This document shows positions 1 to 10,062 of a stretch of 10,757 nucleotides of DNA, piece after piece (within the stretch, counting starts at the first letter, position 1; each line of letters opens with the position of its first letter). The position numbers and the translations under genes were made by a program. Location: the NCBI GenBank assembly GCA_016840025.1, contig JAEOTF010000262.1, positions 1-10,757 on the forward strand, written 5' to 3'. Source of the DNA: Candidatus Hodarchaeota archaeon. Its GTDB lineage: Archaea > Asgardarchaeota > Heimdallarchaeia > Hodarchaeales > YT1-039. The notes under the pieces are model-generated. The model worked only from the letters and a program-made list of their open reading frames with translations. It had not been told where the DNA came from and did no database searches.

Positions 1-2583
1 TACCCAGAGTATGTGGATTTCATTGAATATTTTGTTTTTGACCATTTTGATGTAATAACTGGTGCTTTTGCCGAGGTTGGGGAAAATAGTTCCATATATG
101 CTACTTTCGAGGCTTTAGAGATTCTAAATTACATTGGATTTAATTTTTCGACCTTAGACAATTATACTTTCTATAATACAACCACTACAATCGACGTGAT
201 GGCGGACATTACTAACTTCATTGAAAATTACGTCTGGAATGGCACAATTTTCAATGATTCACTCTCTGTTACGTCACCCATTGCTGATGCCTGGTATGCT
301 ACCGAGATCCTTGATATACTTGAAATTAATGATGTTTTTGTTGAAAACACCCTAAAACCAGCGATGACAACTTGGATTCCTTCCTTACAATCTCCTTATA
401 ATGAAACTAATGCTGAATATGGCGGTATAAGTTGGAATGGCGGGGAAGATATTGTAGAAAGTGCCTTTGCAATGGGCGTATTGTCCAATCTAGGGTTAAT
501 GAATCAAACTTCTACTAACATTACGGATCTTCAAAGGTTTATCACCAAATCTCAGTATACCAGTACCAAGAATGATTACTATGGTGGATTCAGAATAAAC
601 CCTACTACCTCGTATACAACATGTACGATTGATACAGCCTATTCTGCTCTACTTATTTTGTTTTTTAGTGGTGGTTGGCGTGATAGTGCTGATATTGTCA
701 TTTCAACTGATGATAGTGAAGCCAATCAATGGAATAGTGCTGGAAATGAGATTCTTCAAAATGAGAACAGTTCAATCTATGTAGGTATTGCAATTCAAAA
801 CTATACTTTTCACAAGGACTTATCTGTGTCTCTCAAAGTGGAAGACTGGAAAATTTCAGAAAAGGATCCAGACTATCTAGACCGGTATTGCTTCTTTATT
901 GATATAGAAAACCAAACATTCCCATTAGGTCTTCATAATCTTAGCGTTAATTTTACTATTTCTGATCTTTCTTACTTAGATAATCCTCTCTATTCATTTA
1001 GTGATACAATAAAAGTTCGTTATGACATTGACGCAAGTTTTAGTTCTTCTATAACCGCTCTTACACCTGGGTCTTCTTTTGAATTCAATGCTACAATATT
1101 AACTGGGCAACTTCCTGGTACGGATGAAACTACAAAATATGTGGATAATGAAACCGCAATAGTAAATCTTACAACCCCTGCAAAAGTCTCCCATGATCTC
1201 AACATTCCAAGTTCTCTTCTTTCTATAACTGCAGGCAGATTAGAATTTGTTCCTGTTTCTTTACCCGAGGATGCTCTGTTAGGTAGCTGGAACTTTACTC
1301 TGTCGGTCGGTAACCATTCAGTAAATGTCTATAAGTTACTCCTTTTTGATGTTACTAATGTTGTTTTTAGTGACGCTGAAAGCACAAATTTCAGCTATTA
1401 TTTAGGATCTCCAATCACATTTAACTTAACTTTCTCCTATAATAACACAGGAAAATTCCCCACCAGCGTTAATGGAACGGTCCTATTTCAAACTCAAGAC
1501 CAAATCCTCTTTGAATATAACATTACCCACAGTAGTAGCCAGACTTACACCCTTAGCGAGGCAAATATTCCCACCAATCAAGGATTTATTCTAGGAGAGC
1601 TAAATATGACTGTAATTCTTAAATGGGACGAATATGGCGGAATAGCTGAGTACCTCGATAATCACAATCAAACTATAATCATAAAGGGTGAACCTGTAGT
1701 ATTAAATGTAGAAGTAAAAACAAAAGATTCTATTCTTTCTGAATCTGATACTGAACCCTTAGAGGTCTATTATGGTGATTGGATTTCAGTCACATTTGCC
1801 CTCGGATCACTTGCAGCTAATAATGTAATTTCCCCCATAGAAAATGTCACAACAACAGCTGGAGTTGCCGATGTCAATGGAACCCTCCTTTCTCCTTTTA
1901 CTGGGACTCATACAAACGACACGTTTAGTCTCAGCCCCTCTCAAGAGATAGATGAGACTCATAATTATACAGACATCATTAATCCAAATTTGCGCCGTTC
2001 CAATCCAGCACAAAACATTTCATATAGTGTGGGCATCTATGTATACAATGTGTTGAATGATAGTCTTATAACGACAGAGGCGTTCTCCCGTAACTTAACC
2101 ACCCCGTTATATGGATTCGATCGTCTTAAGCTTACTATTGGAGGAACTTTTAAAATAGTTACCAATAGTTTGAAGTATATAACACCATCTCGGCTTGACC
2201 CCGAGAGAGATTCTAACTTTATCGCTTACTTCAAAGTTGAATGTAAGGAGACAGAGCTGGAAATTCAAGAATTGGATATGAACGCCACAGTATCGAAAAA
2301 CGATGATCTAGTCCTCTCGATTCCCTCAATAGGTTATTCGAGAGAAAATGGCTATTATCTTCTAATTCTAGCTATAAATACCCTTTCTCCAGGAGATTAT
2401 CAAGTAACTATAACCGCTGTTGCCGACGGAACTACCGTGGATGATCAAATAAAATTTGCTATAATTTCGGAGCAAACAGAAGAGGATATACCCATCCTAG
2501 AAGGGACTGTGATCATTATCGTGATTATTAACCTAATGGTCATCATTTGGACATATAGAATCTGGGCTAAGAGCATCTCTTAA
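1..2583 (+). CDS. Large glycosylated surface protein with alpha/alpha-toroid repeat domain and C-terminal membrane anchor (5'-truncated)
   Basis: The reading frame is open to the left edge (codons Y-P-E-Y precede the GTG at 13), so the true start and any signal peptide lie outside the window. Counting from that GTG, residues about 1-235 hold four helical repeats resembling prenyltransferase/squalene-cyclase toroid repeats (SPIADAWYATEILDIL, DIVESAFAMGVL, YYGGFR, CTIDTAYSALLIL). Residues about 235-820 are Ser/Thr/Asn-rich and beta-strand-like, suggesting several Ig-like extracellular domains. Residues about 831-849 (VIIIVIINLMVIIWTY) form one transmembrane helix followed by a short basic tail. 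More than thirty N-x-S/T sequons run through the ectodomain, as expected for an exported archaeal glycoprotein. I see no cyclase aspartate motif, so the toroid is more likely a binding or structural fold than an enzyme. The ligand is unknown. It converges on the ATPase genes, so no operon link is implied. Confidence 0.8.
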   Translation, partial: YPEYVDFIEYFVFDHFDVITGAFAEVGENSSIYATFEALEILNYIGFNFSTLDNYTFYNTTTTIDVMADITNFIENYVWNGTIFNDSLSVTSPIADAWYATEILDILEINDVFVENTLKPAMTTWIPSLQSPYNETNAEYGGISWNGGEDIVESAFAMGVLSNLGLMNQTSTNITDLQRFITKSQYTSTKNDYYGGFRINPTTSYTTCTIDTAYSALLILFFSGGWRDSADIVISTDDSEANQWNSAGNEILQNENSSIYVGIAIQNYTFHKDLSVSLKVEDWKISEKDPDYLDRYCFFIDIENQTFPLGLHNLSVNFTISDLSYLDNPLYSFSDTIKVRYDIDASFSSSITALTPGSSFEFNATILTGQLPGTDETTKYVDNETAIVNLTTPAKVSHDLNIPSSLLSITAGRLEFVPVSLPEDALLGSWNFTLSVGNHSVNVYKLLLFDVTNVVFSDAESTNFSYYLGSPITFNLTFSYNNTGKFPTSVNGTVLFQTQDQILFEYNITHSSSQTYTLSEANIPTNQGFILGELNMTVILKWDEYGGIAEYLDNHNQTIIIKGEPVVLNVEVKTKDSILSESDTEPLEVYYGDWISVTFALGSLAANNVISPIENVTTTAGVADVNGTLLSPFTGTHTNDTFSLSPSQEIDETHNYTDIINPNLRRSNPAQNISYSVGIYVYNVLNDSLITTEAFSRNLTTPLYGFDRLKLTIGGTFKIVTNSLKYITPSRLDPERDSNFIAYFKVECKETELEIQELDMNATVSKNDDLVLSIPSIGYSRENGYYLLILAINTLSPGDYQVTITAVADGTTVDDQIKFAIISEQTEEDIPILEGTVIIIVIINLMVIIWTYRIWAKSIS

Positions 2584-2708: not shown

Positions 2709-5700
2709 TCAATGGTTTTTACAGTAAAATCTCTCGGTTTTCTTTAATAACCCCACTTTACGAATCCCACCACAATTTGAACAGATAATTAATTCACATT
2801 CCTCTTTTTCACATTTTTTTAAATGTGAATCACAAAATGATAGTTTACATTTATCACATTGCGTGATCGAATGAACGTCACAAGCAGTCTGAAGACATTC
2901 GTGGCATATAACGATTTTATCGGTGACTTTCCTACATATTTTGCATTGAAATAGAGGTGGTACGTCACATGCAGGTGAACTGACTCCTAAAAATGTAGTT
3001 TGTTGGTTTTCGTTCTCTATCAAAACAGAGAAGAAAAGAAAGGGTGTCCACATCACCTGTACTTTTTTTAATGATTTACTTAGATATCGAAGGGATTCTA
3101 TCCATTTATCATCTTCCTGAAGAGAGCTAATATTATTTCGGGTCTTTTGGACAAAATTCTCTCTTTTTACCAGTTCTTCTTGGGTTTGTCGAATATCCAT
3201 CCCTTGTTGATGAATTTTCCTAAGTAATTCCTTCAGGTACTGTCTTGCATCTGTTTCAGTCTGATTTAACTGGTTAATAACTTTTTCTAACTTTCTTGTC
3301 CTAGACTTGAGGTCTTGTGCTGCTTTTGTAGCTTTTTTCTTTTCTTTTCGTAGTTGTTTGGTGATTTCTGCGCGTTCTAATTTCTTGTTCTTGCTTTCTC
3401 TTGTAGCTTTCGCGATAATCACTGATACTTTTCGGACCTTTTTGAGAAGACTAATTTCATTTTTTATTGGAGGAAGAATCTCTTTTTCCCATTCTTGGAC
3501 GAAAGTACTAACAACATGCGAAATGGATTTCATTGTAATGAATTCGTTCATATTTTTCTTGAATTCATTAATTACATCTTTTTTTGGAACTTCTAGGGAG
3601 AGTCGCGGTGTATCAGTCGCATCAAGCGCCTCTGTTCGCGCATTACGTATATAGTTTTCAAGTCCTCGGAACATTTCTATGAAGTAGATGTTATTCTGAA
3701 GTTTCCCAAAATTATAATTCTGGAACTGACCATCTAAGTCTGATAAAACTGAAAAATTGCCTAAAAAAACCGAATTATATGCTTTTACTTCAAAATGCCT
3801 TTTTTCTATACTATCCATCGAATTCATATCATGGGGAAATGGAATCTCGCCTGCAGCGACAGTTCTTCCTTCAAGAATAAGAACTGGTGCATATACTTCA
3901 TGGAATTCGATATTAGCGATATTTTTGGTTCCTTCTAGCCTTAGATTATCTTTAATGCTTTCACGAATTTCTGAAAGTGAAGGAACAGATATTGTTACTT
4001 CAGTTATGTCTTTCAGCCATATAGGTGTAACTTGTTTTACTTGTTCTTTTATTTCTTCAACACGTTTATGTTTAATTGATGATTTTTCTTCCTTTATAAT
4101 CTCAATTCCAAGCTCTTTCGTAACATCTGTGAAAATAGAGGCGATTTCAGTACTATCCTCTGCTTCACCAGTCTCGCTAGGCAGCGATTCAACAATACTA
4201 TCAATTTCGCTTCTAGATAGATCTCCAAGATCACCTTCAGGTATACTTTGATCTATCCTTCTTGATATTATAGGTTTGAACCATGACTCCCGTCCCATAG
4301 TTGGCGGTCGAATTTTTATAGCAAATCCGCGTTCATTCCCTGGTGTGCGGTCGAAAACGCAGCTCACTCCAGGTCTGAAACTACTTATGCTGCTGCTTGT
4401 TTCTCTCTTGAATGCATCGGGCATACTTTTGGGCATATGTGTAGAAAGCTGTTTCACAGCGTTAGGATTCATTTGATGTAAGAGAACTATATCCATATAG
4501 CTCAGTAATTTGTTAGAGGCTGCAGCTGGTTGATTGGAAGAAAGAACGAGAGAGAGTCCTCGATTGGGACCAATTTCACAGAAACGAGTAATCATATTTG
4601 CAATAGGGGTTTTTTTGGTTTTAGGAAATAATGTATGAGCTCGGTCAAGAAATAACCATAGATTCTGCGGGCGGGGTTGCCTAATTAACCTCAGAATTTT
4701 CTGACAAAGTACACTTGCAGCGATCTCGATTATACTTGAAGATACTACACTGGACATCTGCAAAATAGAAATCTGCCCTGGTCGGATGAGTTCATTAATT
4801 AGTATGCCTTCTTTAGAAAATAGATTTGTAGCAACGAGAATCTTTAACCGATTTCGGAGTCCATTTAGTGTACCAGAAGTATAATCATCATCAAGCTGGC
4901 TACTAGTTCCTATTCGGTGAATCATAAAACCTATGGAGTAGTTTATAATACCTTTTTGCTCAAAATGCCGTAAAATATCTAAAAGACAATTTTTCATTGG
5001 TCCAGTAAGAGGAGCAATTGAGGAGAGAAGATATTCCCAATCTTCTTCTCCTAGGTCAACAGGGCGGATTGTTAGTTTTTTATAGATTATACCTTCCTCT
5101 CTAGTACGTAGCTGTGTAAAATCATTTTGAGGAAGATACACAGTTACATTGCTCAACCTTTTAGGGGTAATCCCCCACCTATCAAGTATTTCTAATTGTT
5201 TTTCTTCAATTATCGGATTAAGAGAGGTAAATGTATGTGAAGAATCGAGAATGATTGTACTGAAAGGTATTCGATCAACTACCGTACACTGATTAAGTCC
5301 TTCTAGAATCACACGAAGAGTGGAGTTTCGTCCCGATCCACGTGCACCTGCTACAAAAACAAGATGTGGCTTAGATAGATCAAGATAACAGGGTAATCCT
5401 CGCCATGTAGTATCCTCATAGTTCGCGCCTAAGAGACTTAAACCCAAATCCCCAATTTCATTATGCTCCTGAATTGATCTGCCAATTAATACCTCTTTGG
5501 ATGTTGTTACATTCAATCGTAGAGAGGAACTAACAGCTAATGGTAGGTCTACTTCTTCAAGCAGTTCTGTTGGAGCTTTCTCTTCCTTTTGAGGAGGAAC
5601 AAGTAGTTTATTGAAGTATTTCAAGACATTTTTAGAAGTAATATCAGTAAATTGACCTGTTGCTTCTCGCTCACTATCCGAAAAAGACGTTCTGACTACA

Positions 5701-6839
5701 AAACTACTTTCTTTTTTATCTTCTTTGAGAACTATGAACTCTTCTGATTGAATGTTAGGAAGTGTGTCGTAAACTCGTGTATAGTCAGCAATATATTTTG
5801 TACGTGTTCCTTTTTTAAGAATTAAGTCATCTTCTATCTTTCCTATAAATTGAGTGGTTGTATATTGAAGAATTAACTGATTTAAAGCACTATGCTCTGA
5901 AAAAGAAAATACACTTCCAATCTTGTCAGCTATAATTTGCTCAACGAAATCTTTCCAAACTTCATAACCAGGGCTTTTAGAGCTTTTAAATGACATTTGA
6001 GAGGTTAAATTACTAAAAATAAGGAAAAAAGGCTCAGGTTTATACTTTCTAACCCATATATTCAAAAAAATGACAAGGAGGATTAAGAAATTTCGTCTTA
6101 TTTTCAAATCGGGAATTGAACTCAAATTTATTATTGAGACAGGGCTCTTCTCCGATTTTGGTACTAAAAGATCTTGAGGATTCAGTAAGATGCCCTGTCG
6201 GTATGCTGTATACTTTCTTCCCTTTGCGAGAATACTCAGGTTATTAGTAAGAGTCTCGAGCTGATCAGGCGGAACCGCAAGTTTGTCACTGTTCTCAACA
6301 AAGAAGTTATACAAGTCTGCCAAACTTGTTATTGCTACTTTTCGCCGAAATAAGTCATACAGAACATAAAAGAGAGGGTCGAATAAAGATGTTCTAGTTA
6401 CTTTGTCTATGTTTCTGAAACTTGAGACAATAATGTATGTTATTGCTTCAATAATAGATTCCTGAAAACCAGCATCGAGGTCTTGCATCATAGAAAAGAA
6501 TGCTATAGGATCAATGCTGATTGGTATCCCAGTTTCATTCCCAGGCGTGAAAATTCCTAATTCAACTGATGAATAGAACTCTTTCGCTATTTGTTGGGGA
6601 ATACCGGAAAGTTTCAATTCTTCTTTTTTCTTCTCATTTCTAAGCTGAGTAAACATTACATCAGGTGTATTATCTAGCACAATTACTGGAACTCGTGCTC
6701 TAACCGCTTCTTCGACTAAGATTCTATCTAAAGCCCCTTTTGTGGCGTCAACTACCGCAACTCCTCTAGATAATTCATCAAAGGTAATTGTGAACTCTTT
6801 TCGATCTCGTTGTGTTCCAAGCCACCACACTGTCGTCAA
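2709..6839 (-). CDS. Double HerA-like pseudo-ATPase with coiled coil and multi-zinc C-terminal tail
   Basis: This 1376-residue protein has four parts. Residues 1-285 resemble a HerA/DUF853-type P-loop module (WWLGTQ start, ILVEEAVRARVPVIVLDN, FTPGNETGIPIS). The P-loop site reads DATKGALD, without the lysine, and the Walker B site reads FFLIFSN, without acids. Residues about 449-850 form a second module of the type that normally reads GKRGSGKS. Here it is GARGSGRN (498-505), Walker B is FLDRAH (Asp732, catalytic Glu replaced by Arg733), and the sensor is SSNQP. Residues about 870-1130 are unassigned, about 1140-1260 are a charged coiled coil, and 1299-1376 hold sixteen Cys/His ligands. ATP hydrolysis is therefore unlikely; a scaffold or regulatory role is inferred. 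The start is TTG at 6839, because an in-frame TAA lies three codons upstream; GTG at 6830 is the alternative. It lies 87 bp downstream of an intact HerA-type gene, the probable partner. Confidence 0.85.
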   Translation of the reverse strand: MTTVWWLGTQRDRKEFTITFDELSRGVAVVDATKGALDRILVEEAVRARVPVIVLDNTPDVMFTQLRNEKKKEELKLSGIPQQIAKEFYSSVELGIFTPGNETGIPISIDPIAFFSMMQDLDAGFQESIIEAITYIIVSSFRNIDKVTRTSLFDPLFYVLYDLFRRKVAITSLADLYNFFVENSDKLAVPPDQLETLTNNLSILAKGRKYTAYRQGILLNPQDLLVPKSEKSPVSIINLSSIPDLKIRRNFLILLVIFLNIWVRKYKPEPFFLIFSNLTSQMSFKSSKSPGYEVWKDFVEQIIADKIGSVFSFSEHSALNQLILQYTTTQFIGKIEDDLILKKGTRTKYIADYTRVYDTLPNIQSEEFIVLKEDKKESSFVVRTSFSDSEREATGQFTDITSKNVLKYFNKLLVPPQKEEKAPTELLEEVDLPLAVSSSLRLNVTTSKEVLIGRSIQEHNEIGDLGLSLLGANYEDTTWRGLPCYLDLSKPHLVFVAGARGSGRNSTLRVILEGLNQCTVVDRIPFSTIILDSSHTFTSLNPIIEEKQLEILDRWGITPKRLSNVTVYLPQNDFTQLRTREEGIIYKKLTIRPVDLGEEDWEYLLSSIAPLTGPMKNCLLDILRHFEQKGIINYSIGFMIHRIGTSSQLDDDYTSGTLNGLRNRLKILVATNLFSKEGILINELIRPGQISILQMSSVVSSSIIEIAASVLCQKILRLIRQPRPQNLWLFLDRAHTLFPKTKKTPIANMITRFCEIGPNRGLSLVLSSNQPAAASNKLLSYMDIVLLHQMNPNAVKQLSTHMPKSMPDAFKRETSSSISSFRPGVSCVFDRTPGNERGFAIKIRPPTMGRESWFKPIISRRIDQSIPEGDLGDLSRSEIDSIVESLPSETGEAEDSTEIASIFTDVTKELGIEIIKEEKSSIKHKRVEEIKEQVKQVTPIWLKDITEVTISVPSLSEIRESIKDNLRLEGTKNIANIEFHEVYAPVLILEGRTVAAGEIPFPHDMNSMDSIEKRHFEVKAYNSVFLGNFSVLSDLDGQFQNYNFGKLQNNIYFIEMFRGLENYIRNARTEALDATDTPRLSLEVPKKDVINEFKKNMNEFITMKSISHVVSTFVQEWEKEILPPIKNEISLLKKVRKVSVIIAKATRESKNKKLERAEITKQLRKEKKKATKAAQDLKSRTRKLEKVINQLNQTETDARQYLKELLRKIHQQGMDIRQTQEELVKRENFVQKTRNNISSLQEDDKWIESLRYLSKSLKKVQVMWTPFLFFSVLIENENQQTTFLGVSSPACDVPPLFQCKICRKVTDKIVICHECLQTACDVHSITQCDKCKLSFCDSHLKKCEKEECELIICSNCGGIRKVGLLKKTERFYCKNH
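2712..2945 (-). other. Sixteen-ligand zinc-binding tail
   Basis: Residues 1299-1376 contain eight successive Cys/His pairs: C1299/C1302, C1312/C1315, C1320/H1323, C1328/C1331, C1336/H1339, C1343/C1348, C1353/C1356 and C1373/H1376. The first eight ligands have spacing C-x2-C-x9-C-x2-C-x4-C-x2-H-x4-C-x2-C, close to FYVE-like cross-brace treble clefs. Two C-x2-C-x4-C-x2-H units (starting at C1312 and C1328) follow each other at 16-residue spacing. The tail could bind four zinc ions and serve in DNA or protein binding. It is not a canonical RING. Confidence 0.7.
3060..3422 (-). other. Coiled-coil segment of the pseudo-ATPase
   Basis: Residues about 1140-1260 are almost entirely Lys/Arg/Glu/Gln with regularly spaced Leu, Ile and Val and no proline, typical of a long coiled coil of about 120 residues. 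The N-terminal half is strongly basic (KQLRKEKKKATKAA), so it could also contact nucleic acid. It separates the ATPase-like modules from the zinc tail and could mediate oligomerisation. Confidence 0.65.
4290..5495 (-). other. Degenerate ATPase module 2 (protein domain)
   Basis: Residues about 449-850 match the HerA/VirB4-like family that has the strand LSKPHLVFVAG before its P-loop, LDxAHTLFP at Walker B, GLSLVLSSNQP at the sensor and a SYMDIVLLHQM strand. The P-loop lysine is Arg504 and the following Thr/Ser is Asn505. The Walker B glutamate is Arg733, while Asp732 and His735 remain. The family GRQ before the sensor is altered to GPNRG. A lysine-to-arginine change alone normally abolishes ATP turnover in P-loop NTPases, and loss of the Glu makes hydrolysis less likely still. 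Nucleotide binding without turnover stays possible. Confidence 0.7.
5985..6839 (-). other. Degenerate ATPase module 1 (protein domain)
   Basis: Residues 1-285 of the large protein follow the order of HerA-like bacterial/archaeal ATPases: WLG strand, P-loop, ValProValIleValLeuAsp strand, FTPG-x3-GIPIS, a helical insert, a VSIINLSS strand and a Walker B strand. At the P-loop the expected G-x-T-G-x-G-K-T is DATKGALD (31-38), with Leu at the lysine position and Asp at the Thr position. At Walker B (271-277) the acidic pair is replaced by Ser-Asn. The fold appears kept while both nucleotide motifs are lost. The assignment is by eye, without a profile search. Confidence 0.6.
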
Positions 6840-6854
6840 ATTCCATTAGTTTTC

Positions 6855-6867
6855 AAATTTATTTTCC
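6855..6867 (-). promoter_or_regulatory. Possible TATA-like element for the pseudo-ATPase gene
   Basis: The minus strand reads GGAAAATAAATTT here, centred about 22 nt before the TTG start at 6839. No Shine-Dalgarno-like purine run lies between the TATA-like box and the start. The spacing fits an archaeal promoter giving a leaderless or nearly leaderless transcript. The gene may instead simply be co-transcribed with the HerA gene upstream. AT-rich sequence produces such boxes often, so this is tentative. Confidence 0.3.
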
Positions 6868-6926
6868 AAAAAGGGAATTCAGCTAAGAATTTGTTTAATT
6901 GACTACCTAAAGATTTTTTGTTTTCT

Positions 6927-9107
6927 TTATTCCAATAATTCCTGTATTTCCCCTTTATATTCAGAGATAACACCAATACTCCAAAATACTTTATTTTCTT
7001 CAATAAGTGCTGCCCCACTTGCTATTCCTATATTTTCTTCCTTTTTAAGGAGGAGAAAGTGCTCTTTATTAGACAAGTTAGCGAATGTCTGGGCGATGTC
7101 CCACTTGTTCTTCTCTACTAATCTTGAAAGAAGTCTTATATATTTTCGTATAGTAGTTTTTATCGTTATTATCTCTGGGGTTATATCATGCCACCATTTT
7201 CCGAATTGAATTTTACGACGAAATTCGTCCTCAAGAGTATCGGGTTGGTCCGTTATTTCGGTCAATGAGCTATGTTTAATGAGAGCAAGCGGATAACGAT
7301 TATATGGGTAACCTTTGATTGTTATGGGTGTTCTGGTGTATACAGGAACTAATAAAAAATGGTGCGGGGGGAGATTCTTCATCAATTCGCTATAGGAAGG
7401 ACCTAAATTCTTCAAGCTTTTTATAACCCATTTACGGTCTTCATCTGCAGTTAAATAGCCTATTGCTGCCATACTGACGTGAGGTACGACACGGTGATCT
7501 AAATCCCGTGGTCGTTGAGTACCGAGCACCATTTTGAGATAATATTTTCGTCCCATCCTAGCTACTAATCTCATCTTATCTGCAAGCCGTCCTCCTTCTC
7601 TTCGAGTTTCTGGGAAAGAGAGATGCGCTTCGTCAAAGAAGATAATAATTGGTCGGAGTTGTTCTTTTAGAACTCGTTCAAAATCATCATTTGAGCCGCC
7701 TTTAGCTAGGATTTCAGCTTTCACTTTCCCTGCAATTTTATCTCGATGATCATAAATTTCTGATGTAATATATCGAAGCACAAATTGAATAAGATTCGTA
7801 GGAGTACCTGGAGGCATTCGAAAAATATGTAATCGCTTTCCCCGTTCATCATCGAACAATTTCTCTACATTGAGAAGGTTTGCCCGGCGATAGCCAAAGA
7901 TATTATTCTTAATCAATAACTCAAGGTAATTGAGACTGTTTTGAATCCATTTTTGGTGATCAGCCCGTTCTCCTTTGAGTCGTACCTTAGATCTTTCCAC
8001 AAATTTCTCAGGCGTCAATCCGATTATATCCTTAGTATCATCAATCAGCTGTCCTATAAAACCAGCTGCGCTTGCGGACATAAAGCGTTGTGGTGACATC
8101 TCCTGAATGATCTCAATAAGATAGGTCGTCGAAAGAAGAAGCTGCATATCTAGTTGCATACTTTTCCCTATTACCAATACTTCTGTCATATCTTTAAATT
8201 CCGCTTCGTTTTCGTAGAGGTATTCACTCTGCACATCACCAATGACGATTTGTGCATTAGAATTACGCAGAATCTGAGCGATCTGGTTCTTCATGAAGGT
8301 TGTTTTCCCGCTACCAACTGTCCCGAGTGTCAGTACGTTTGCATATTGCGCTGAAATGATCGTATCAAGGTCAATCTCTATTTGTACATTCTCATTGTTA
8401 CGATAAGACCCCATTGGTACTCCTTTCTTAAAACCAAAGAAATCGTTCATTTCTCTCTCTGACATTTTCACAAGGAATTGATTCATAAAACCGCTCAATG
8501 CATAATTGATTGCTAACTTCCCCCATTTATTGATATACCCTAAATTTTTAAATTGAATCGTAGTTTTATCTTTTTTCTTTGCTATAACATTTACAGAAAG
8601 ATAGTTATCGGTTCTTTCGCCGCTATCAGAGTAGTGGTAGATTTTAAAGTAGTCACCAAGCGAAATTGGAATTCTATCCGCCGTCTCATTTGGGATCTCA
8701 ATTTCAAGAATTTCTTGATCCATTTCAACAAATTTGAAGTCCACATCCCGTTTCAAATAGAACTGATTTGAATAATCCATACGTTTGACAAGGAATTCCG
8801 CGTCCATCAGAAATTCGAGCAGTCGGCTTTCCGCTCGATTATTTGAAGCTAACTCCATACGTCTTTCTGAAAGTAGGTATTCACCATAGCGGGGCATATC
8901 TCGCAATAGCTTCTCTATACTTTCAATCTTCTCGGTGGCGGTTTCATCGCCTTCTAACTCCATATACTCCCCACGAAGATGCGTAAGTAGCCGAATAAGT
9001 TTTGATACTACTTCGTTAAGGGGAAGATCAAGTAAAATTGCTGCAGCTTCACGGGGATCATTGATAAAAAGGTCTAAGACCTTTTGTAGTTCTTCTGAGA
9101 GTGACAT
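6927..9107 (-). CDS. HerA-type DNA-translocating ATPase (motifs intact)
   Basis: This 726-residue protein belongs to the HerA/FtsK group of P-loop motors, which form hexameric rings that pump or unwind duplex DNA. Numbered from the chosen ATG, Walker A is GTVGSGKT (262-269), Walker B is FFDEAH (DEAH 492-495), and the sensor/arginine region is ARMGRK followed by GTQRPRDLDHRVV, all canonical for HerA. An N-terminal helical part (about 1-100) and a beta-rich part (about 105-195, perhaps a HAS-like barrel) precede the motor. About 120 residues follow it, ending in a small beta domain (GIASGAALIEE). It is longer than typical archaeal HerA, roughly 500-600 residues. The ATG at 9107 is preferred over ATGs at 9149 and 9134 because only it has a GAGGAG ribosome site. 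The pseudo-ATPase gene follows in the same direction. No NurA nuclease gene is adjacent in the window. Not necessarily the orthologue of repair HerA. Confidence 0.85.
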   Translation of the reverse strand: MSLSEELQKVLDLFINDPREAAAILLDLPLNEVVSKLIRLLTHLRGEYMELEGDETATEKIESIEKLLRDMPRYGEYLLSERRMELASNNRAESRLLEFLMDAEFLVKRMDYSNQFYLKRDVDFKFVEMDQEILEIEIPNETADRIPISLGDYFKIYHYSDSGERTDNYLSVNVIAKKKDKTTIQFKNLGYINKWGKLAINYALSGFMNQFLVKMSEREMNDFFGFKKGVPMGSYRNNENVQIEIDLDTIISAQYANVLTLGTVGSGKTTFMKNQIAQILRNSNAQIVIGDVQSEYLYENEAEFKDMTEVLVIGKSMQLDMQLLLSTTYLIEIIQEMSPQRFMSASAAGFIGQLIDDTKDIIGLTPEKFVERSKVRLKGERADHQKWIQNSLNYLELLIKNNIFGYRRANLLNVEKLFDDERGKRLHIFRMPPGTPTNLIQFVLRYITSEIYDHRDKIAGKVKAEILAKGGSNDDFERVLKEQLRPIIIFFDEAHLSFPETRREGGRLADKMRLVARMGRKYYLKMVLGTQRPRDLDHRVVPHVSMAAIGYLTADEDRKWVIKSLKNLGPSYSELMKNLPPHHFLLVPVYTRTPITIKGYPYNRYPLALIKHSSLTEITDQPDTLEDEFRRKIQFGKWWHDITPEIITIKTTIRKYIRLLSRLVEKNKWDIAQTFANLSNKEHFLLLKKEENIGIASGAALIEENKVFWSIGVISEYKGEIQELLE

Positions 9108-9111
9108 TGTA

Positions 9112-9117
9112 CTCCTC
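9112..9117 (-). promoter_or_regulatory. Ribosome binding site GAGGAG of the HerA-type gene
   Basis: The minus strand reads AAGAGGAGTACAATG, placing a purine-rich site 4 nt before the ATG at 9107. The two in-frame ATGs further upstream (9149 and 9134) are preceded by T/A-rich sequence without such a site. This motif therefore decides the start and removes 14 residues from the longest reading frame. Confidence 0.65.
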
Positions 9118-9162
9118 TTAAGTAAGAAATTCATGGTTAAAAAATTCATACGTTTTTTTAAG

Positions 9163-9207: not shown

Positions 9208-10062
9208 TCAGGGGAATTTGTCTCTATATGTAGGGAAGATGTCGTGGTAAGGTTTGGTATAAGCGAAAAATTCTTCCAATGCGTTTTGCTTCAGGCGGAT
9301 GTAGTAGTAGCAGTTGAGTCTTGAGTTTTTAGATTTTCTTGGAAAAACCTTGATATCATCGCTATCGGGATGAATGCCAAGTACTTTTCTTAGAAATCCT
9401 GTTAATCGTTCATTCTCAGTTTTAGTGAATGTTAATGATAGTAAATTGATGCACCACTTATTCTTGTAAGAACCGTCTTCAAGGTACCAAAGATATAGAA
9501 CATAGGGCGTAAAATCACTTGCTTTCAACCACTCAGGCAGAATCTTGATATGCGTCAAATCAGGATTTTTCCGTATTTCATCACTCGTTGGGAGTCTGTA
9601 CCAATCCCAAAACCACTCCATCAGTTCAACGGATCCCATTGTCTTGAAACGTGTAGAATATGAGGGAGTACCGTCCTTGAGAAGGACTTCATCTGTTTTG
9701 TAGAGAATGGTAAAGCCAAGTCCTGTGTTCTCAACCTTACCTGCCAGAGATTCAACGTATTCGGTGTGTATCTCATTCTGAGCTAATGTGAAGTAGGCAG
9801 TATTTCCGTACCGAAGAACATTACCGTCTTCAGCTTTAGTGAAATTAGTCGCAATACAACCATCTGCGAGCATTGACCCGATCAACTGTTCTCTGAACAA
9901 CTTATCTATTGGAAAACTATGTTCTTCTGCCGCCTTCTTCTTACAGAGGAGGATCTGTGCTTCTGACCTGTCTCTGTAACAATAAGGCAACAATTCCTTG
10001 ACCTTATCACGAAGAAGAGTCTTACCACACTTCGCAATAGGTGCAATCTCCTCTGGAGTCAT
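9208..10062 (-). CDS. LAGLIDADG homing endonuclease, catalytic part still open
   Basis: This 284-codon open frame holds both LAGLIDADG motifs of a two-motif, single-chain homing endonuclease: LIGSMLADG (60-68) and LYLWYLEDG (189-197), with acidic residues Asp67 and Asp196 at the catalytic positions. Basic, beta-rich stretches between and after the motifs fit the DNA-contacting saddle, and the C-terminal half ends in a FFAYTKPYH helix typical of the family. Such enzymes cut a long specific DNA site so that their own gene is copied in. The ATG at 10062 is probably not the native start. It has no ribosome site and falls inside a helix-turn-helix repeat whose first half lies upstream in the same frame. 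The frame is therefore best read as the 3' remnant of the longer broken gene. No intein splice motifs or host exon sequence are visible, so it looks free-standing. Confidence 0.75.
   Translation of the reverse strand: MTPEEIAPIAKCGKTLLRDKVKELLPYCYRDRSEAQILLCKKKAAEEHSFPIDKLFREQLIGSMLADGCIATNFTKAEDGNVLRYGNTAYFTLAQNEIHTEYVESLAGKVENTGLGFTILYKTDEVLLKDGTPSYSTRFKTMGSVELMEWFWDWYRLPTSDEIRKNPDLTHIKILPEWLKASDFTPYVLYLWYLEDGSYKNKWCINLLSLTFTKTENERLTGFLRKVLGIHPDSDDIKVFPRKSKNSRLNCYYYIRLKQNALEEFFAYTKPYHDIFPTYRDKFP

Follow-up and report, generated by a model that had tools for sequence, protein, structure and literature searches.

A 10,757-bp stretch of a Candidatus Hodarchaeota archaeon contig (the window) carries, side by side on the minus strand, the gene for an intact HerA/FtsK-type ATPase and the gene for a 1376-amino-acid (aa) protein in which one dead module of the same superfamily is certain and a second is probable. 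Three things are directly established: the live motifs are intact, the second module of the large protein (module 2) is dead, and its dead site is inherited in one relative. Our leading explanation, to which we give just short of an even chance, is that the two genes may form a DNA-handling unit in which the dead protein would partner the live motor without being catalytic itself. DNA repair, segregation, conjugation and anti-phage defence are powered by HerA/FtsK motors, and pseudo-ATPases can control live relatives. A HerA module stripped of five catalytic positions, with a dead pocket unchanged in a relative, offers a case, open to testing, of a motor fold retained for its shape, and this case probably comes from the archaeal lineage closest to eukaryotes.

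The live motor is encoded by a 740-codon open reading frame (ORF) at 6927..9149 (minus strand); an internal methionine at 9107 is a possible alternative start, giving a 726-aa product that matches the coordinate of an initial annotation made on this DNA. By its motifs, the protein is an intact HerA/FtsK ATPase. It matches Pfam DUF87, the HerA central domain (E 1.6e-10, over the curated cut-off), solved HerA chains in the PDB (best E 2.6e-8) and several PADLOC HerA models (best E 4.8e-17; mad8, E 1.7e-14). The Walker A motif, GTVGSGKT, spans residues 276-283 (8301..8324, minus strand), and the Walker B motif, IFFDEAH at residues 503-509 (7623..7643, minus strand), keeps its catalytic acid. The arginine finger R534, within GRKYY, and the sensor TQRP at residues 544-547 (7509..7553, minus strand) are likewise intact when aligned with 11 other references. 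In the available part of PMC10853773, HerA/FtsK proteins are defined by an arginine finger that immediately precedes strand 4, together with a glutamine sensor at the end of that strand. The initial annotation had credited this gene with GSGKT, DEAH and GTQRP; GSGKT, DEAH and TQRP are confirmed, and finger R534 is added to them. No Pfam family exceeds its cut-off in residues 15-245.

Module 2 of the 1376-aa protein comprises residues 478-850 (4290..5408, minus strand) and, on profile comparison, is a HerA/FtsK fold. Against a profile of 12 HerA/FtsK references, hhalign returned P 1.4e-30 globally and 5.6e-24 locally; PADLOC mad8 matches at E 2.9e-10, and Pfam DUF87 at E 0.0014, below its cut-off. 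The references are ten fetched plasmid loci, the live protein of the window and P0004, the sole distant relative of the 1376-aa protein found (E 1.1). The ten loci were hand-picked from tblastn matches, three from plasmid searches and seven from the 20 matches listed of 289 records.

Within this fold, all five catalytic positions are substituted, and we predict that module 2 has no working active site. The degenerate Walker A motif, GARGSGRNST at residues 498-507 (5319..5348, minus strand), has R504 in place of the lysine and N505 in place of the serine or threonine, and the degenerate Walker B motif, WLFLDRAH at residues 728-735 (4635..4658, minus strand), has R733 in place of the glutamate. 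In the finger and sensor region, residues 755-771 (4527..4577, minus strand), P758 replaces the arginine within EIGPNRG (755-761), and N769 replaces the glutamine within VLSSNQP (765-771). The P-loop lysine, serine or threonine, catalytic glutamate, finger arginine and sensor glutamine are kept in 12 of 12 references, and none of the five in module 2. Because the reference sequences were trimmed around their P-loops, the first two of these residues are intact in the references by construction, and no fetched reference was dropped for missing either one; the glutamate, arginine and glutamine played no role in choosing references. Across all 1376 residues, the pattern [GA]xxxxGK[ST] does not occur.

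The glycine frame of the P-loop, GARGSG, survives, so nucleotide binding by module 2 can be imagined. This leaves some room for a mixed-ring ATPase, whose ring would alternate live subunits with dead ones contributed by module 2, the latter in the place that the non-catalytic alpha subunits take in F1-ATPase. A non-catalytic F1 subunit, however, keeps the Walker lysine and supplies an arginine finger; module 2 has neither the lysine nor an arginine at the aligned finger position, and the two proteins come from different branches (see below), so that by this analogy we regard a mixed ring as quite improbable. As a donor of an arginine finger to the live ring, module 2 is disfavoured because the position is a proline in both available sequences; R760, two residues past P758, is retained and may represent a shifted finger.

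The second of these sequences is P0002, the only close relative of the 1376-aa protein found in a protein search that scored about 8000 candidates, a depth at which distant relatives can be missed. Its NCBI name is that of a partial ATP-binding protein from a Promethearchaeota archaeon; it is 917 aa long and lies on a 3.3-kb contig; it starts mid-protein, apparently at the contig edge, with the first 49 residues missing. For the 740-aa protein, searches of the same depth returned no relative besides the window's own. Scans of viral and genome contigs with window queries found no relatives. Matching phage records numbered zero for the 1376-aa protein and one for the 740-aa protein, and matching plasmid records two and 55, respectively, none of which covers 80% of its query.

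Over module 2, the window protein and P0002 are identical at 300 of 373 positions (80%). Over the four catalytic motifs they are identical at 30 of 30, a hypergeometric P of 0.001 against the overall figure in a test that compares two sequences with motif boundaries set by the analyst. Since P0002 has the same substitutions at these positions, the dead pocket is inherited and the substitutions are not a sequencing slip; since the motifs are identical throughout against 300 of 373 over the module, the pocket is conserved and not drifting. The initial annotation had held that homologues with intact motifs would speak against its view, and the one close homologue carries the same dead motifs. Its proposal that the folds were kept for a structural role also gains from P0002, whose shared substitutions argue for a structural or regulatory role; for the second fold concerned, that of module 1, support is moderate. 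Outside the catalytic motifs, as would be expected of a binding surface, residues 591-666 (4842..5069, minus strand) are identical at 75 of 76 positions and form a candidate partner surface.

These comparisons bear on whether the 1376-aa ORF is a decaying gene. Its loss of catalytic residues and the grossly different C-terminal part of P0002 would suit a pseudogene, but the frame is open over 1376 codons, its codon usage resembles that of the other large ORFs in the window, and the dead motifs are 30/30 identical in an 80%-identical relative; we consider decay very improbable. The ORF (2709..6839, minus strand) has a TTG start, and the database form, P0001, is three residues shorter, consistent with a GTG start.

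The N-terminal region of the same protein, module 1 (residues 1-345; 5805..6839, minus strand), lacks the Walker A glycine loop, and at the Walker B position of the profile alignment has LIFSNLT, where P0002 has LVFSNLS. Between residues 50 and 345, 189 of 296 positions are identical in the two proteins. We think it probable, from profile comparisons, that module 1 is a degenerate HerA core. The strongest support came from a 14-row profile that combined both module 2 rows with the 12 references, and to which residues 4-345 aligned globally with a score of 38.0 (P 4.2e-7). None of 60 column shuffles (maximum 12.2) and none of 52 windows from real proteins (maximum 23.4) reached this score, a comparison that is imperfect in that the null windows are single sequences and module 1 is a pair. 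The two best real windows (23.4 and 16.3) carry a Walker A motif and are probably P-loop proteins themselves. In local mode, module 1 scored 41.4, again above all 60 shuffles (maximum 22.5) and all 52 real windows (maximum 37.9). With the module 2 rows removed, the 12-reference profile gave a global score of 22.5 (P 2.8e-4; 0/60 shuffles and 1/52 windows as high) and a local score of 22.4 that did not rise above the null (1/60 and 13/52).

Smaller tests gave results that were weak or mixed. Against five references, module 1 gave P 0.14, with 238 of 1417 scored shuffles as high, and with module 2 added P 0.1 and 26 of 1427. Eight references gave P 0.036 locally and 0.81 globally (21/1500 shuffles as high for the window row, 341/1500 for the P0002 row), and their combination with module 2 gave 2.5e-4 and 2.2e-6 (11/1500 and 9/1500); a three-row profile gave P 0.025 and 0.53 (4/1500 and 15/1500). 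In pairwise tests, shuffles scored as high in 1 of 200 cases against module 2, 4 of 200 against the live HerA and 90 of 200 against P0004. Pfam, PADLOC and NCBIfam gave no HerA match for module 1, and the PDB no relevant one. Structure prediction with AlphaFold 2 on two-row alignments gave a predicted local distance difference test (pLDDT) score of 32.3 for module 1 and 30.8 for module 2 as a matched control; because the control, whose fold is known from sequence, scored as low, neither model is readable. A Foldseek search with the unusable module 1 model, a check that the initial annotation had proposed, yielded no match at E 0.001 among 409, and we do not use it as proof; no readable model gives module 1 a different fold. 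Four HerA entries (8xav, 8xau, 9c1m and 8ziq; E 0.94-1.6) stood among the best 50 of the 409, amid P-loop and unrelated folds, and the control model drew eight unrelated matches. Of the two tandem modules that the initial annotation described as having lost the P-loop lysine and Walker B glutamate, module 2 is confirmed, with the serine or threonine, finger arginine and sensor glutamine gone as well, and module 1 has moderate profile support.

Downstream of the modules, a heptad-period peak marks a coiled-coil-like stretch at residues 1131-1242 (3114..3449, minus strand), and residues 1291-1376 (2712..2969, minus strand) form a tail with 14 cysteines and four histidines that likely binds zinc. 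The tail matches no Pfam family, and its best PDB match, a small zinc-finger protein, is not significant (E 0.69). P0002 ends without the tail and, by eye, with coil-like fragments only. With 917 codons used, some 540 bp of the P0002 contig remain, from which we infer that this end is probably a real stop. The coil and tail noted in the initial annotation are thus present, but they are not core features, being absent from P0002 except for parts of the coil.

The two proteins of the window belong to different parts of the superfamily. Among the 12 references, BLASTP places module 2 nearest a Haloplanus HerA (E 1.8e-22, 23% identity over 330 residues), followed by the C-termini of Piscinibacter, Hymenobacter and P0004 proteins (E 1e-13 to 5e-10). 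These three proteins are 1784-1858 aa long; each has a C-terminal mad8 match and resembles DndH or SspH models in its middle part. For the live core, the best match is a Phaeobacter HerA (E 1.3e-9); the live protein matches the Haloplanus HerA at E 2.8e-4 and the three DndH-like C-termini at E above 3, and aligns with the 1376-aa protein over 137 residues at E 1e-4. Module 2 resembles a dead representative of the Mad8/DndH-end branch, with the live protein nearer other HerAs, and a recent duplication appears unlikely. Two further readings concern the pair. One is that the large protein represents a dedicated Asgard family of dead double-HerA proteins that would regulate or load a separate live HerA of another branch, its conserved dead pocket put to new use in binding a ligand or a partner; we consider this possible but on balance unlikely. 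The other, our main rival explanation, is that the genes are chance neighbours and the dead protein has a role of its own, for instance as a scaffold that binds DNA or protein, unconnected with the motor. The different branches, the weak mutual alignment, the 87-bp gap and an adjacency seen at one locus all suit this rival, but membership of one superfamily, a shared strand and direct adjacency speak against it, and we judge it unlikely, if a serious contender.

The initial annotation's pair of adjacent same-strand genes holds: both are HerA/FtsK superfamily members on the minus strand, with the motor gene first and 87 bp separating the 740-codon from the 1376-codon ORF. No terminator-like site was found between them, in a scan whose promoter part covers bacterial promoters only. 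In favour of a two-gene unit with a non-catalytic partner we count direct adjacency, the common strand and the lack of a terminator-like site in that scan, along with the intact motifs and HerA matches of the live protein, the conserved dead pocket of module 2 and the candidate partner surface at residues 591-666. In such a unit, the live protein would form a ring that moves duplex DNA with ATP, the ring and the DNA substrate both being presumed; the large protein would dock on that ring or on DNA through its retained fold, as a putative adaptor or scaffold, and would bring the motor to its target. The coiled coil and zinc tail would then be a variable, lineage-specific attachment. Several points weigh against this proposal. 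Neither protein has an identified DNA-binding or nuclease domain, and a gap of 87 bp does not establish co-transcription. Because module 2 belongs to one HerA branch and the live protein to another, direct co-assembly is not implied. Evidence that the dead site is conserved comes from two sequences, and the P0002 contig apparently stops before the neighbouring gene, leaving the pairing seen at one locus. Profile support for module 1 is good when module 2 is included, mixed when it is left out and moderate overall.

The pair could also belong to a defence system against invaders of the type that has captured a HerA (DndH, BREX-related or MADS), of which just two genes would lie on this contig; this reading is compatible with the proposed two-gene unit. 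Both proteins match PADLOC mad8; module 2 is nearest the Haloplanus HerA, which lies in a BREX-like plasmid locus, and then three proteins that match both mad8 and DndH/SspH models; and the best reference HerA for the live protein adjoins a DUF4297 anti-phage gene. Against this, the four ORFs scanned (three with PADLOC) yielded no nuclease or methylase and no PglZ or DndF/G partner, a LAGLIDADG-like ORF excepted, on what is a short contig that ends 1.6 kb beyond the motor gene. Ordinary HerA is also matched by the PADLOC HerA models, and the resemblance is distant (20-23% identity), so that we regard a defence role as rather doubtful. Secretion genes were not seen in the window either.

The LAGLIDADG-like ORF encodes 284 aa at 9208-10062 (minus strand), directly upstream of the motor gene, and matches the homing endonuclease family LAGLIDADG_2 (Pfam E 4.2e-7, over cut-off). 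On the opposite strand, an open-ended ORF of 860 aa (1-2583, plus strand) is rich in asparagine and threonine, with a hydrophobic stretch near its C-terminus; its product looks like a cell-surface protein, for which neither Pfam nor NCBIfam gave a family match over cut-off and PHROGs gave none. Among the fetched loci, the Haloplanus HerA-type gene (L001, 5209-6378) stands in a row with genes for a BREX ATP-binding protein, a GNAT protein, a PD-(D/E)XK nuclease and a helicase. On an Aneurinibacillus plasmid (L024, 5335-11586), a HerA-type gene lies beside SAF-domain, AAA, type II secretion/type IV pilus/type IV secretion (T2SS/T4P/T4SS) ATPase and TadB genes, a Tad-pilus-like setting. Loci L004-L017 hold actin genes 46-99% identical to a eukaryotic bait on contigs that carry bacterial genome labels; those close to full identity probably represent contamination from eukaryotes.

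Set against known systems, the closest precedent for the large protein is EccC/EssC of the type VII secretion system (T7SS). In EccC, the canonical FtsK-like module is D1. According to the available part of PMC11154593, EccC/EssC proteins have tandem FtsK-type modules of which D2 and D3 are degenerate, a DUF module studied by crystallography does not bind nucleotide, and the degenerate modules have been proposed to act structurally or as regulators. The 1376-aa protein shares the degenerate Walker motifs, the proposed kind of role and, module 1 being probable, the tandem FtsK-type modules (PMC11154593), but EccC keeps its canonical module in the same chain, whereas here the live motor is a separate gene and the large protein has no [GA]xxxxGK[ST]. 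The initial annotation knew of no described two-gene system of this architecture. None of this layout appeared among the titles and abstract openings of the matches listed in our literature search, which covered few subscription journals and is weak evidence of absence; degenerate tandem FtsK-type modules, however, had already been described in EccC/EssC (PMC11154593), so that what was not met in the literature searched is the split of motor and pseudo-motor between two genes.

Large defence proteins that carry a HerA/FtsK domain together with other, catalytically inactive domains are described in the available parts of PMC10853773 and PMC12839542. Like the DndH and HerA/FtsK capture systems there (PMC10853773), the window encodes a large HerA/FtsK-domain protein, and P0004, L002 and L022 match DndH/SspH models, mad8 and module 2. 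In DndH-type proteins, as far as that account goes, the HerA/FtsK domain is intact and C-terminal, behind a nuclease; here the domain is dead and no nuclease was identified. The Haloplanus locus resembles the BREX-related capture systems in the consulted text of PMC12839542, and its HerA differs from module 2 in that GKRGTGKS, LFIDEAH, GRQPG and TQQP are all intact. Measured against HerA-NurA, the window has no match to the NurA, Mre11 or Rad50 families among the four ORFs scanned, and the N-terminal part of the live protein has no family over cut-off; what the live protein has in common with that system is the HerA core and its motifs.

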